Source: an uncultured Schlesneria sp.
Lineage (GTDB): Bacteria; Planctomycetota; Planctomycetia; Planctomycetales; Planctomycetaceae
Direction: 5' to 3'
NCBI GenBank assembly: GCA_903858935.1
Contig: CAIOKO010000201.1
Location: forward strand, 1-64,000
Length of the DNA stretch: 64,000 nt
Made by a program: the position numbers and the translations under genes. Positions 2,981 to 49,483 of the stretch are shown piece by piece. A model generated the notes under the pieces. That model ran no database searches, was not told the origin of the DNA, and saw only the letters and a program-made list of their open reading frames with translations. Position 1 is the first letter of the stretch; every line of letters starts with the position of its first letter.

Positions 2981-3031
2981 ATTGCCAGGGCAAAGGCCCG
3001 TTAACCACCCCCGCAGGGGGGGGTGGGGTTT
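2981..3031 (+). repeat. Dispersed G/C-rich hairpin repeat, copy 1
   Basis: This copy shares its core with the two copies near 47.3 and 48.1 kb: GGGCAAAGGCCCGTTAACC (2988-3006), then a C run, a short spacer and a G run, then GGGTTT. The C and G runs can pair as a stem of about 8 bp. The G run is longer here than in the other copies. On the minus strand the repeat supplies the last codons and the TAA stop of the gene at 3001-4239. Confidence 0.7.
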
Positions 3032-4239
3032 GTCTCTACGTTGCCTGGCCACAAGGTAATCGGCCAGTTTGTGACGTCCGCAATCGACTTAGCTGCCTCA
3101 AAATCCGGAACAAACAGGAGCACGTCATTTGCCGACAACTCCTGTAGACAAACGTCTCCTGCGGTTCGCCATTCTTGCTCAATGGTCCAGTTGATCCCGG
3201 AATCTCCGACTGCCAATTGAAAAAACGGACGCTCGTCCTCGGTCAGCGATTGCCAGAGATCCTCGTCACCGTATAGGACAGGCCGAACGCCACGACTCTG
3301 CAACCAGGAACGCCTTATACAGAGACCGTACGGCTCAAAATCCCATCGGACGCGATGAGTACGATACCGGTGAAGTGCAGGAAGATTTTCGAGAGGACAG
3401 GCGGTGAAACTGACTGTTGGGCGGCCACCGCGAATCGTTTTCCCCGAAGCAATCAATCGCTTCTGAACTACAATTCGCCGCAAGGCACTTAACGTCGAAT
3501 GTTCGGCCTCAGGATGAGATTCAACCAGACTATCGGCATATTGCTCAAACGACTCGTCAGGCCACGGACCAGGACACGCCCGTGTCGTGTGGGCTAAAAA
3601 CTCCCATCCGTCAGCGGAAGGAAACGGGACAATTTCGTAAATGCGAGGGTGAATCGAACGATCTTTGTTGTCACGTTCCTCGACAATCAGCGAAACGGGG
3701 GTAATTGGCCGACATTCTTCCGTGGTCGGTCGCCAGATCTCAGCACCGGCTTTGTGAAGTTCATCCTTGATGACATCGGACTGCAAACCGGGAAGATCGA
3801 CAAGAACAATGCCGCCTCGCTGTTGCTCGATCCGTTCTTTCAGTAATCGATGTAGATTCCCTGCTGGCCTCAATTGAAGGACATAAACAGTATCTGCTGC
3901 AGCGATCAACGCTCGATCACGCAAAGGGATCTCGTCACTTCCATGCTGAGCGACATTCGCGACTGTCCCAGTAGCGCTGGCATCTTGCCGCCGGAAGGTG
4001 ACATCGTCACCGCTCGAATTGTTGACAGTGGTAACCTCGATTGTCTGGCAGGCAACGTTCAATCGCAGCGCACAATGTCGCACAAAATCGGTTCCCGCCG
4101 TCCCGTCAGCCACAACGAGATTTGATTGATCAGTGGCGATTTTTCGCAACGTGCCACGCAATGCCGCCAACCACGACTCGTCTGGAACCACGAGTCGCTT
4201 GAGTCGTGACATAACGACAGCAACTGTTGGCGGAGTCAT
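3001..4239 (-). CDS. Hypothetical protein, 412 residues
   Basis: A soluble protein with no signal peptide or membrane helix and no family I recognise. The first 60 residues contain a hydrophobic strand-like stretch (SNLVVADGTAG) and residues of about 140-155 another (GGIVLVDLPG), suggesting an alpha/beta fold, but no nucleotide-binding loop is clear. The final residues, NPTPPCGGG, and the stop codon are encoded by copy 1 of the dispersed hairpin repeat, so the natural C-terminus may have been replaced by repeat insertion. The ATG at 4239 has a GGAA about 10 bases upstream; an internal Met ten residues in is an alternative start. Confidence 0.7.
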   Translation of the reverse strand: MTPPTVAVVMSRLKRLVVPDESWLAALRGTLRKIATDQSNLVVADGTAGTDFVRHCALRLNVACQTIEVTTVNNSSGDDVTFRRQDASATGTVANVAQHGSDEIPLRDRALIAAADTVYVLQLRPAGNLHRLLKERIEQQRGGIVLVDLPGLQSDVIKDELHKAGAEIWRPTTEECRPITPVSLIVEERDNKDRSIHPRIYEIVPFPSADGWEFLAHTTRACPGPWPDESFEQYADSLVESHPEAEHSTLSALRRIVVQKRLIASGKTIRGGRPTVSFTACPLENLPALHRYRTHRVRWDFEPYGLCIRRSWLQSRGVRPVLYGDEDLWQSLTEDERPFFQLAVGDSGINWTIEQEWRTAGDVCLQELSANDVLLFVPDFEAAKSIADVTNWPITLWPGNVETNPTPPCGGG

Positions 4240-4320
4240 TTACCGATTCCATTTGGCAGTGATGAAACAGGTTTTTTGAAAATCTCGCGGTGGCATTGAA
4301 TCAGAAGAGAAATGCGGGTT

Positions 4321-4434
4321 TTGAACACTAATCTGCACTAATTTTCGCTAATCAGAAAACTCAAGATTCTGCTGACCGTTTCCTTTTCCCGGCTTATTCC
4401 TGATAGTGCAGATTAGCGAAGATTAGTGTTCGAA
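4321..4434. repeat. Imperfect inverted repeat with CACTAAT motifs
   Basis: Two arms (about 4321-4355 and 4399-4434) are imperfect reverse complements, each built from short units such as AACACTAATCT and TTCGCTAAT. The element lies between the starts and ends of two minus-strand genes with no gene inside. Its construction resembles the hairpin at 45463-45557, which shares the AACACTAAT unit. It could be a small non-autonomous element or a mRNA-end hairpin; no T run follows the arms. Confidence 0.5.
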
Positions 4435-4468
4435 AACTCTTTCTTCCTCTTTCAATCTTGTTCAAATG

Positions 4469-11639: not shown

Positions 11640-11711
11640 GTGCCAACTGTGCCAAACTTTCTGACATGTGTGCCAACCGTGCCAAGCAATTCGCAGGTGT
11701 GCCAAACTTTG
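11640..11711 (+). repeat. Degenerate dispersed TGCCAAAC repeat, copy A
   Basis: About 54 bases from 11649 match the reverse complement of 40235-40288 at roughly 80 percent by eye, with ACATGTGTGCCAAC as the best conserved core. Both copies lie in gene-free DNA near a GGACC...TTATGGG motif. The translated forms look alike in one frame, but the lack of any start context or conserved length argues against coding. Confidence 0.55.
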
Positions 11712-40167: not shown

Positions 40168-40288
40168 GGACCAATAGGAGTTATGGGACATTAGGGTGCC
40201 CGTTCAAAGAAGTCACATTCAAAGTTTTCAATGCCATATCTGCCGATTGATTGGCGCAGTTGGCACACATGTCGGAACGTTTGGCACA
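40168..40288. repeat. Degenerate dispersed repeat, copy B, with GGACC motif
   Basis: Positions 40235-40288, read on the minus strand, match copy A at 11649 at roughly 80 percent by eye. A GGACCAATAGGAGTTATGGG word at 40168-40187 parallels the one at 11495-11514. The element lies in the gene-free stretch 40106-40514. Confidence 0.5.
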
Positions 40289-40451
40289 GGGTAGACGCAA
40301 TGCGACCAATTCTGGGCTTTTGATACGCAACACCATTGGCGTAAAGACACGACCCGATCGACGAAGTCGATAAACCAAATCCATCGTCAGTTCCATTCCC
40401 CGTGACGTTTGGCTTTCCGAAGACGCCACATCACCCATAAATCGCATCATT

Positions 40452-45446: not shown

Positions 45447-45462
45447 AAAAGAGTAAGAGTTC

Positions 45463-45557
45463 AACCACGGATAACACTAATGGGCACGGATGATATAAGA
45501 ACGCGTCTCAATTGATTTCTTCGCATTTATCCGTGCCCATCAGTGTTATCCGTGGTT
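45463..45557. repeat. Long inverted repeat (29 bp arms)
   Basis: Arms 45463-45491 and 45529-45557 are reverse complements with one mismatch, around a 37-base centre. Each arm contains AACACTAAT or its complement, as does the element at 4321. It lies in the gap between two convergent genes and is followed by a separate terminator. It may be a small non-autonomous element or an mRNA-end structure. Confidence 0.75.
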
Positions 45558-45581
45558 AAATCGTATTCCCTACTCTAATGA

Positions 45582-46795: not shown

Positions 46796-47131
46796 TTAAC
46801 CTGGCGGCCAACTGAGAGGCCGTCCGCCGAGCAGGTGGATATGCAGGTGGTTCACCGATTGTCCTCCGTTTCGACCGCAATTGATGACAGTTCGATATCC
46901 ATCGGACAGTTGCAATTGCACAGCAAGTTTGCGGGCGACGCAAAGGAGATGCCCTAACAATGGTGCATCTTCATCGGTCGAATCGGCCAGCGAGGGAATT
47001 TCTTTCTTGGGTATGATCAAGACATGAGTTGGTGCCTGACCATTGATATCCCGAAACGCGAGACATTGTTCGTCCTCGAACAGGATTTCGGCAGGGATCT
47101 CACGATCAATGATGCGTTTGAAAATCGTCAT
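46796..47131 (-). CDS. HIT-family (histidine triad) nucleotide-binding protein
   Basis: A 111-residue HINT-type protein, a nucleotide hydrolase acting on phosphoramidates such as AMP-lysine. It begins TIFKRIIDREIPAEILFEDE and carries VLIIPKKEI and the histidine triad VNHLHIHLLGGR near the C-terminus. The length is normal for the family. The stop codon lies in a small TTAACAAG/CTTGTTAA inverted repeat (46765-46799). Confidence 0.92.
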   Translation of the reverse strand: MTIFKRIIDREIPAEILFEDEQCLAFRDINGQAPTHVLIIPKKEIPSLADSTDEDAPLLGHLLCVARKLAVQLQLSDGYRTVINCGRNGGQSVNHLHIHLLGGRPLSWPPG

Positions 47132-47299: not shown

Positions 47300-47349
47300 A
47301 ACGAAACCCCACCCCCTCCACGGGGGTGGTTAACGGGCCTTTGCCCTAG
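47300..47349 (-). repeat. Dispersed G/C-rich hairpin repeat, copy 2
   Basis: A 50-base copy in reverse orientation to copy 3 at 48081-48130, with a single mismatch. It contains an 8 bp C-run/G-run stem with a 5-base loop, the GGGCAAAGGCCC word and a CTAG end that faces the enclosed gene. It lies in the otherwise gene-free stretch 47132-47508, where nothing else was recognised. Confidence 0.85.
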
Positions 47350-47508
47350 CGCCTTTAAACTTGCGATCAAATCGAGAATACTTCACGACCGACATCGTCA
47401 TCGGCAGTTTGACGGTGCATATGTGGCCTTAACAGGGGCGCACCCCTCGATCGTTGGTACGCGGAAGCGGGTCAATCTTAATTGGAATTCCGATGGCGGG
47501 CGTGAATC

Positions 47509-47970
47509 ATGGGCGACTTCTTCAAGCCGTGGCGACGAAAGATCGGGGCGGTGACGCTGGTGATGGCGTGCGTGTTCTCAGTGGGATTGGTAAGGAGTTT
47601 TTACATCTCGGATGTCATGGAATACTTCCCTGGTGAATCATCCATGATTCGTCTTATATCGTGGCGCGGAAATGTGAGTTGCAGTTATCTGATCGGCAAA
47701 CCTCCGTCGAAATTCGTTAAAAGGTTCTTGTTCTTTGCGTATGAGAATCCGTATCCGTTTGAAACTGAGTTCGAGGGTTGCCAGTGGGTTTGGCGGGTCG
47801 GTCACATGGGCGTTGCAACCTGTTCTGATACAACTTCCGACTCCATCGCTGTTGTTTCCCCCTACTGGTCCATCGTCTTTCCGTTGACTCTACTTTCTGC
47901 GTACCTGCTGCTCACCAAACCGCGTATTGCGAAACCGAAAACCAACGTCGAACACAGGCTTTCTGAATAA
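47509..47970 (+). CDS. Small hypothetical membrane protein
   Basis: A 153-residue protein with hydrophobic segments at about 11-30 (IGAVTLVMACVFSVGLVRS) and 121-138 (SIVFPLTLLSAYLLLT), and a soluble loop of about 90 residues between them that contains two Cys. The pattern WRRKIG near the start and PYWSIVFPLTLLSAYLLL near the end suggest a family; from general knowledge small proteins of this shape recur in planctomycete genomes, but I assign no function. It is the only gene between two inverted copies of the 50 bp hairpin repeat, which may have carried it. Confidence 0.72.
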   Translation: MGDFFKPWRRKIGAVTLVMACVFSVGLVRSFYISDVMEYFPGESSMIRLISWRGNVSCSYLIGKPPSKFVKRFLFFAYENPYPFETEFEGCQWVWRVGHMGVATCSDTTSDSIAVVSPYWSIVFPLTLLSAYLLLTKPRIAKPKTNVEHRLSE

Positions 47971-48080
47971 GCGGGCAGGTCACCGAGTAGTTTTCGGGCA
48001 ACTGCCATACGACGGGCAAAGCGGGTTACGGGGCCATTGTACCAGAATTACTTTTCGATTGGGTTACGAGTTAAGAGACA

Positions 48081-48130
48081 CTAGGGCAAAGGCCCTTTAA
48101 CCACCCCCGTGGAGGGGGTGGGGTTTCGTT
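48081..48130 (+). repeat. Dispersed G/C-rich hairpin repeat, copy 3
   Basis: This copy is the inverted partner of copy 2, with 49 of 50 bases matching. It lies just after the end of the small membrane-protein gene and 23 bases from the 3' end of the convergent bioF gene. The stem CCACCCCC/GGGGGTGG is followed by GGTTTCGTT, which could help end transcripts from the + strand, but copy 2 has no such position. Confidence 0.85.
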
Positions 48131-48153: not shown

Positions 48154-49332
48154 TCAAACGGATCGTTTTGAAGGTATCAATTCACCAATCTTCACAGCCA
48201 GACTCGTCACGATTTCTTCCGGCAGACCGCTGTGCAGTGTTACCCTCAGCCGCGATGTTCCTTTCGGGACGGTCGGGGGACGGATCGCTCCGACAAGGAA
48301 GCCGTGCTCCAGAAGTCTTTCGGCAACCTTCATGGCTGCCTGTGGTTCATTAAGAACAATCGGGACAATTGGCCCGACGGAACCGGGGAAGGGGACTACG
48401 CCAGCACTGGCAAGTTGAAGTCGAAAGAGTTGGCAGAGGGAATGAAGTCGATCACGGCGTGACGGCTCAGTCTGGATAATCTCCAGGGAGGTTGTTGCTG
48501 CGGCACAAAGCGATGGAGGAAGCGAGGTCGAATAAATCTGTGTGCGGGCTTTATTCCACAAGTAGTCGATCAACGTCTGGCTACCTGTCACGAAACCTCC
48601 AAGGCAGCCGATGGACTTGCTCAGCGTGCCAACCCGAACTGCAATCCTCTTTTCCACACCCTGCAGTTCGGCAACACCGCGACCTCGCTCGCCAAAAACT
48701 CCCGTCCCATGTGCCTCATCAAGGATCACGGTCGTTTCGTATGTCTCCGCGATCTCACACAGTTCGGGAAGCGGGGCCAGATCGCCGTCCATGCTGAAAA
48801 CGCTGTCGGTGACCAGAAACTTACGACGAGCCGACTCACGAGCCAACGACTGCTGTAATCCCGTCAGATCATCGTGCCGATAAACGCGGAGCCTGGCTCC
48901 CGACAGTCGGCAACCGTCAACCAGGCTGGCGTGATTCCATCGATCACAAAAAACGGTGTCGCTGGCGCCTGCTAACGCAGCAACCGTTCCGACGTTGGCC
49001 GCCATTCCCGTTGGAAACAGGATCGCGGCTTCGGTCCCTTCGAATGCGGCTAATGCTCGTTCAAGATTTACGTGCAGATCAGTTCGACCCGATACCAGCG
49101 GACTGGCTTTTGCCCCAACACCGTGCGAGCGAAGGCCCTCCGCTGCCGCCGCCACAACTCGCGGATCGTTGGCAAGACCAAGGTAGTCATTCGACGCGAA
49201 GTCCCATACTTCGCGCCCATCGATGAAGACTCGTCCTTCCCCGATTGGTTTGACCTCGCGACGACGTCGAAACAGTCCTTCATCGGATAGTTTTTGAAGT
49301 TCGTCCGGAAGCCAGTCGAGAAGGTCGGTCAT
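48154..49332 (-). CDS. bioF: 8-amino-7-oxononanoate synthase-like PLP enzyme
   Basis: A 392-residue alpha-oxoamine synthase that condenses an amino acid with an acyl-CoA; BioF joins alanine and pimeloyl thioester in biotin synthesis. Family features are DFASNDYLGLANDP, HGVGAKASPLVSG, the cofactor residues in LDEAHGTGVFG (205-215) and the PLP lysine Lys239 in GTLSKSIGCLGG. Other members (Kbl, serine palmitoyltransferase) look alike, and no other biotin gene is nearby, so the substrate is probable rather than certain. The ATG at 49332 is chosen because a terminator for the upstream gene lies at 49398-49436, before the longer frame's start at 49449. Confidence 0.88.
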   Translation of the reverse strand: MTDLLDWLPDELQKLSDEGLFRRRREVKPIGEGRVFIDGREVWDFASNDYLGLANDPRVVAAAAEGLRSHGVGAKASPLVSGRTDLHVNLERALAAFEGTEAAILFPTGMAANVGTVAALAGASDTVFCDRWNHASLVDGCRLSGARLRVYRHDDLTGLQQSLARESARRKFLVTDSVFSMDGDLAPLPELCEIAETYETTVILDEAHGTGVFGERGRGVAELQGVEKRIAVRVGTLSKSIGCLGGFVTGSQTLIDYLWNKARTQIYSTSLPPSLCAAATTSLEIIQTEPSRRDRLHSLCQLFRLQLASAGVVPFPGSVGPIVPIVLNEPQAAMKVAERLLEHGFLVGAIRPPTVPKGTSRLRVTLHSGLPEEIVTSLAVKIGELIPSKRSV

Positions 49333-49397
49333 CTCAGTTTTTTCGTTGGATTCCGTTTGAATGGTTGCGATGAAGTTCACACGTTTAAAGTCAGTGC

Positions 49398-49436
49398 AAA
49401 AACAGCCGGGAGTATCATTTCCGATACTCCCGGCTG
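49398..49436 (-). terminator. Intrinsic terminator after the MFS gene
   Basis: A perfect 14 bp stem (49403-49416 and 49423-49436) with a 6-base loop, followed on the minus strand by five T residues (49402-49398). It terminates the MFS gene upstream and separates it from bioF. Confidence 0.85.
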
Positions 49437-49483
49437 ACGAGAAGTTCAACTCATGAACTCATTCTTTGGGACGAGGCTCAGAG

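Follow-up and report, generated by a model that had tools for sequence, protein, structure and literature searches.

A gene between two inverted repeats

The window analysed here is a stretch of 64,000 nucleotides from a contig (C201) of an uncultured Schlesneria sp., whose genome (G000) is an assembly of 280 contigs and 7.93 Mb. Between a HIT-domain protein gene and a class I/II aminotransferase gene, which we take to be 8-amino-7-oxononanoate synthase-like, lies an 831-base segment bounded by two copies of a repeat (table 1). The left copy agrees with the reverse complement of the right at 49 of 50 bases, and the agreement extends weakly inward (19/29) to give 79-nt arms with 68/79 identical bases. 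The best interior ORF encodes a protein of 153 aa; the ORF list between the arms also has shorter, overlapping entries without support, and includes no transposase. A third copy, isolated in another part of the window, matches the left copy at 42/50 bases and the right at 40/49. The original prediction had described near-perfect 50-base inverted repeats, one enclosed gene, no transposase between the arms and a distant further copy, and in all of this it was accurate.

The core pattern of the repeat, at up to 3 mismatches, occurs three times in the window compared with 0.01 on average over 100 shuffles. The two copies around the gene are intergenic. The third overlaps an ORF at its predicted end, and the repeat seemingly supplies the last codons and stop. 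No direct target duplication is visible immediately outside the arms. Other inverted repeats of the window comprise two hairpins with 32-nt arms (45460-45560 and 4319-4435) and a distant 58-nt pair (11647-11704 with 40232-40289). Rfam gave no match in the window at gathering thresholds.

Table 1. Features of the window, with positions in window coordinates, and the loci of the third site discussed in the text.
Feature	Position	Strand	Remarks
Third REP copy	2984..3033	-	overlaps predicted 3' end of ORF 3001-4239 (-)
Left neighbour, HIT-domain protein gene	46796..47131	-	flank for empty-site test
Left REP copy (L)	47300..47349	+	8-bp stem and 4-bp stem
Doublet linker	47350..47383	+	common to gene-less G001 doublet and G005; alignment, boundaries by eye
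Segment upstream of gene	47384..47508	+	present in G005, absent from G001 and G004
153-aa protein gene	47509..47970	+	hydrophobic segment near each end, variable middle; unnamed multi-copy family
Segment downstream of gene	47971..48080	+	last 29 bases are the weak inward arm extension (19/29)
Right REP copy (R), inverted	48081..48130	-	sequence comparison, hairpin fold
Right neighbour, class I/II aminotransferase gene (PF00155)	48154..49449	-	flank for empty-site test
Third-site locus L311 (G000:C69)			
Third-site locus L310 (G001:C142)			
Third-site locus L312 (G004:C183)			
Third-site locus L313 (G005:C71)			

A REP-type hairpin family and its pairs

A 91-base repeat query returned at least 51 matches in the window's own genome (40 of 124 candidates scored), and the core at up to 3 mismatches matched there 151 times, with a single match for the reversed control. 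At up to 2 mismatches, 153 matches were found in G001 and 115 in G005 (controls 0). The repeat was detected in four of 15 Schlesneria genomes (G000, G001, G004 and G005), and among the matches listed from the genome collection (80 of at least 91 stretches) all that bear names belong to uncultured Schlesneria.

We aligned 29 copies, comprising the three from the window and 26 of near-full length from 23 of 30 own-genome loci. Their fold has two stems, of 8 bp and 4 bp, with 96.0% of 348 cells paired and six cells changed on both sides; none of 500 shuffles reached either value. By a weaker measure, the number of pairs changed on both sides, there are two, both in the longer stem, and 38 of 500 shuffles reached this. 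Folded as single-stranded DNA, the three window copies gave z-scores of -2.23, -3.58 and -1.28, the third being unremarkable by folding energy alone. The consensus of the 29 copies starts AACGAAACC and ends GCCCTAGC, with CTAG as its foot. We conclude that the repeat is a high-copy, REP-type hairpin family in which the hairpin is maintained by compensating changes. A hairpin repeat family that tends to insert near gene ends was one of the two options in the original prediction, and it was broadly borne out: the approximately 150 copies of the family stand singly or in short inverted pairs. The two repeats around the gene share one subtype, and several of the doublets inspected end in a variant right half.

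The orientation of neighbouring copies was analysed for the first 100 listed in each of G000, G001 and G005 (of 151, 153 and 115, respectively), a sample that favours well-conserved copies. Neighbours less than 150 bp apart face inward in 30 of 32 cases, and those 150-1200 bp apart in 10 of 13 (G000 4/4, G001 3/5, G005 3/4; p ~1e-4 at an expectation of 1/4). Farther out, inward-facing neighbours fall to 7 of 64 (1/17 at 1200-3000 bp and 6/47 beyond). Inverted pairs with a short linker are a common unit here, the arrangement that defines a REPIN or BIME. The window pair is one of the ten inward pairs at 150-1200 bp and, because inward orientation prevails in neighbours up to 1200 bp, it looks like a stretched doublet.

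Length and ORF content vary among these ten wide pairs. The pairs on contigs C69 (G000) and C142 (G001) each enclose an ORF, of 152 and 162 aa, and the two ORFs are homologous; three of the seven besides these and the window pair have no ORF of at least 60 aa, and four have untrusted ORFs of 60-92 aa. Rescanning at up to 4 mismatches revealed an additional degenerate repeat in two of the ten (G000 C69 and G001 C132), and in C69 the ORF is situated between this degenerate repeat and the right one. Two contigs, L129 (G000:C130) and L302 (G001:C142), are short and REP-rich, and one wide pair of C130 contains two copies of another repeat. Near-perfect terminal inverted repeats with no transposase inside would suit a conventional transposon or MITE with a passenger gene; however, no target duplication is visible, these repeats are also scattered through the genome singly and in short doublets, and the wide pairs differ in content with no conserved interior, so that we regard this origin as extremely improbable.

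The family of the enclosed gene

The window protein has at least 39 matches in its own genome. Across the genus the number ranges from none to 84 or more in a genome, with matches in 12 of 15 genus genomes and in none of 44 outside it. A profile search of the order matched 15 of 170 genomes, namely the same 12 and three of other genera with one match each (up to 23 candidates scored per genome). Pfam, NCBIfam, PHROGs and PADLOC yielded no family for the window protein; at E <=0.1, single members of a set of 19 that we aligned gave weak matches (E 0.0097 to 0.084), which were disregarded. Solved structures searched with profile A1 gave no hit at E <=1, and the window protein was not found in viral contigs or plasmids. 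The gene thus belongs to what is, from its predicted products, an unnamed, genus-centred and hyper-expanded family of small membrane proteins.

In the 19 aligned members, mean column entropy is 1.41 and 1.08 bits at the two ends and 2.78 bits in the middle. Hydrophobic segments lie near both ends, and L061 and L062 peak in the middle too. From its charges and hydropathy, the protein would probably sit in the inner membrane, with its two termini inside and a variable portion on the outer side. Family loci with proteins of ~150 aa include, besides the window gene, L144, L145, L147, L148, L155, L156 and L157. Many members lie in tandem arrays, and many are truncated. Short stretches on contigs C222 and C87 of G005 share 78-81% identity with the final ~32-37 residues of the window protein, which suggests that family tails are shared beyond orthologues; the C87 remnant is without a REP. 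The best own-genome paralogue, on contig C260, has 42% protein identity, and its DNA likeness to the window is restricted to the gene ends, a few dozen downstream bases and the repeats.

Arrays in three species (L148 5241-8133, L160 4135-7506 and L163 5003-7604) have similar flanks and share genes pairwise (six pairs, 79-88% protein identity), none of which is full-length in all three, a pattern that suggests rapid gain or loss. An integron-like array, in which an attC recombination site would follow each gene, was considered and tentatively set aside: spacers, measured from the end of one profile match to the start of the next, are mostly below 70 bases and reach 165, with no common site by eye.

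Between G000 and G005 the window gene has a dS of 0.342 and a dN/dS of 0.21, and the neighbouring HIT and DUF3500 genes have dS values of 0.447 and 0.532 for the same two genomes. As its dS resembles that of its neighbours, the gene is approximately as old as the G000/G005 split; judged by these rates, it is inherited in place and under constraint. Six matching member pairs from arrays with similar flanks gave dN/dS ratios of 0.16 to 0.29, and by this measure all seven tested orthologue pairs are under purifying selection. Pooled dS is 0.512 for the gene ends and 0.316 for the middle (with the opposite order in one of the seven pairs), which hints at exchange between paralogues.

History of the site and known repeat systems

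The HIT and aminotransferase flanks were found together in eight genomes including the window's own; in seven others the HIT gene was not found beside the aminotransferase gene, which makes them uninformative. G005 has both repeats and the gene, with a protein 86% identical to that of the window. In G001 the gene is absent and the doublet measures 128 bp: the left half and linker of the window pair match this doublet, and in the window the gene separates them from the right half. Neither gene nor repeats are present in G004, nor in G006, G014, G002 and G003. In G005 (C215, L045), an extra palindromic insert of ~220-240 bases lies between the gene and the right REP, and a sequence like it adjoins a REP in G000 (C38, L021), both observations being made by eye. 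The original prediction had named two findings that would count against it. The first, a repeat at many sites but always single and never with the gene, was seen in part, in that most copies stand without the gene; the other, the same gene at this place without repeats, was found in none of the seven relatives with both flanks together.

The direction of change at the site is less clear. G004 lacks ~60 and ~25 flank bases that are common to the other three REP-bearing species (by eye), and because these shared bases are also missing, its empty state may be a deletion. The four species differ pairwise by 10.2-12.2%, and their site patterns conflict (98, 83 and 53 over 5849 positions), so the phylogeny is nearly a star. 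With the species almost equidistant, the order of events is a matter of inference. The succession 'doublet first, gene later' is unpolarised by these four sequences, and G001 would look identical had it lost the gene.

Within these bounds, the reading that we favour, and consider somewhat probable, is that an old copy of a family gene came to lie inside a REP doublet (REPIN/BIME) and was then inherited in place. The arms would be the two halves of one doublet from a repeat family shared by four closely related species of one genus. The arrival of the doublet in the gap that separates the HIT gene from the aminotransferase gene would be the work of a Y1-type (HUH) transposase supplied in trans and using single-stranded DNA, the route put forward for known REPs. 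A gene of the multi-copy two-TM family would later have landed in the linker by insertion or ectopic recombination, stretching the doublet to 831 bp, and would thereafter have been inherited in place. In support of this, a second site, on C260, carries (by eye) two tandem family genes with a right repeat after them and, ahead of them, a left repeat followed by a linker and an inner repeat that is truncated. At the corresponding place in G001 and G005, family genes and repeats are likewise present, with an extra REP in G001. G004 matches only the side of the gene read as valyl-tRNA synthetase, and with one side alone it is an unclean empty site.

The alternative that the gene came first, with a REP inserting on each side in separate events and G001 later losing the gene by deletion between the repeats, is in our view rather unlikely. 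About 150 REPs would presumably flank some genes on both sides by chance, and the patchy content of family genes, even in arrays with matching flanks, makes loss plausible; the extra REP of G001 at the second site also fits. Also in its favour is a third site, that of the homologous ORFs in C69 and C142, where a search with the C142 ORF product gave a single match apiece in G000, G001, G004 and G005 (table 1). This small gene, with a hydrophobic front and a cysteine-rich tail, is accompanied by differing sets of repeats. An inward pair is found in G001, and in G000 it is joined by a further repeat; the two repeats of G004, whose locus is cut on the left, point the same way, and G005 shows one repeat within the flanks fetched and has an interrupted frame. 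To the right of the gene G000 and G004 are collinear, and to the left G000 and G005; the G001 contig starts nearby. Where comparison was possible the gene thus holds its position, while the repeats around it have changed. From this distribution, the repeats at the third site seem to have come to the gene, rather than the gene to a doublet, and the site favours neither movement of a cassette nor a general rule of genes entering doublets. Independent landings, however, do not predict that 10 of 13 neighbours at 150-1200 bp face inward; the remnant in G001 is spaced like an ordinary doublet, and the gene without REPs is unseen at the window site in the eight genomes with both flanks.

The other option in the original prediction, a small cassette moved in trans, did not find support. 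In its general form, stretched doublets would be gene-carrying mobile units, the whole inward segment being moved by a Y1-type transposase in trans. At two sites, seen in two species and in three, inward pairs do enclose family genes, and the repeats could presumably serve as ends like those of IS200/IS605. Against this, the window gene has diverged like its neighbours, its age equalling that of the host divergence; its nearest own-genome relative is the diverged paralogue described above, with DNA in common only at the gene ends and repeats; and four species each have just one copy of the gene at the third site. Enclosing REPs are also absent from most of the family loci fetched. Among the matches listed for the own genome, two of 12 family loci are enclosed by inward pairs (C201 and C260) and one more has a repeat ~240 bp away, and of 14 further loci in G001, G004 and G005 none is enclosed and two have a single repeat within 1 kb. 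These loci were picked from the best-scoring matches and from arrays rather than at random, and the 14 leave out the places matching the window and C260 sites.

The spread of REPs has been attributed to REP-associated Y1 transposases (in the portions of PMC3116915 and PMC6006769 drawn on here), and we searched for such a gene in the four REP-bearing genomes. For 43 loci of 49 Y1 matches, up to ~1.5 kb on each side was inspected, less at contig ends. No REP was present in the fetched flanks of 42 of the 43; the one locus with a nearby REP looks IS200-like. Three other Y1 proteins score above the cut-off of the NCBIfam IS200/IS605 model and below that of the REP-associated model. A RAYT adjoining the repeat (a REPtron) was sought and none among the 43 loci, some of which are cut at contig ends, was convincing. 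No cognate transposase was found among the Y1 loci examined and, taken with the points above, gene-carrying mobile units are very unlikely. The more specific proposal, that inward REP-gene-REP segments of up to ~1 kb are moved in trans by a single-strand transposase and so help to scatter the two-TM family in Schlesneria, is in our view highly doubtful.

The favoured reading, of a family gene that entered a doublet, has points against it as well: the near-star phylogeny, the possible deletion in G004, the pattern at the third site, the lack of a linked Y1 gene and the single subtype of the window repeats. If it is correct, the gene may resemble a mobile cassette without being one, as an old copy lying within or between common repeats. 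The analysis also brings out an unnamed family of putative membrane proteins that is conserved at both ends and variable between them and that has, in one genome, 84 matches or more. Should it prove true that wide REP pairs carry genes, REPs would be gene vehicles rather than bare repeats.

Judged by titles and the starts of abstracts, we found no published work on the Schlesneria repeat or the two-TM family. REPs tagged with GTAG or CGTC have been reported in Planctomycetes, with units of many families lying close together in opposite orientation (as described in part of PMC3733652). The Schlesneria repeat is likewise a REP-type palindrome of this phylum, although its foot, CTAG in the 29-copy consensus, differs from both GTAG and CGTC. 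Class 3 TnpA-REP systems, found mainly in Planctomycetes, Acidobacteria and Proteobacteria and having a CnGA foot, resemble it in forming high-copy secondary structures in the same phylum (according to the excerpted text of PMC6006769), whereas no Y1 gene is convincingly linked to the Schlesneria repeat. IS elements that insert into REPs offer another likeness, in that foreign DNA interrupts a REP or doublet (the cited part of PMC1525189), but the content of the doublet here is a gene of a host family without a transposase.

For REP, BIME and REPIN elements (Nunvar 2010, PMC2817692, and PMC3116915, in the extracts considered), the difference is that no adjoining RAYT gene was found here. Bertels and Rainey (2011) report, in the portion of PMC3116915 concerned, that neighbour distances in P. 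fluorescens do not deviate above 400 bp; the inward orientation observed here reaches ~1.2 kb and is a different measure, as the 400 bp concerns distance and not orientation. The likeness to these elements lies in the short hairpin, the 115-153 pattern matches per genome in the three genomes counted and the inverted doublets with short linkers.
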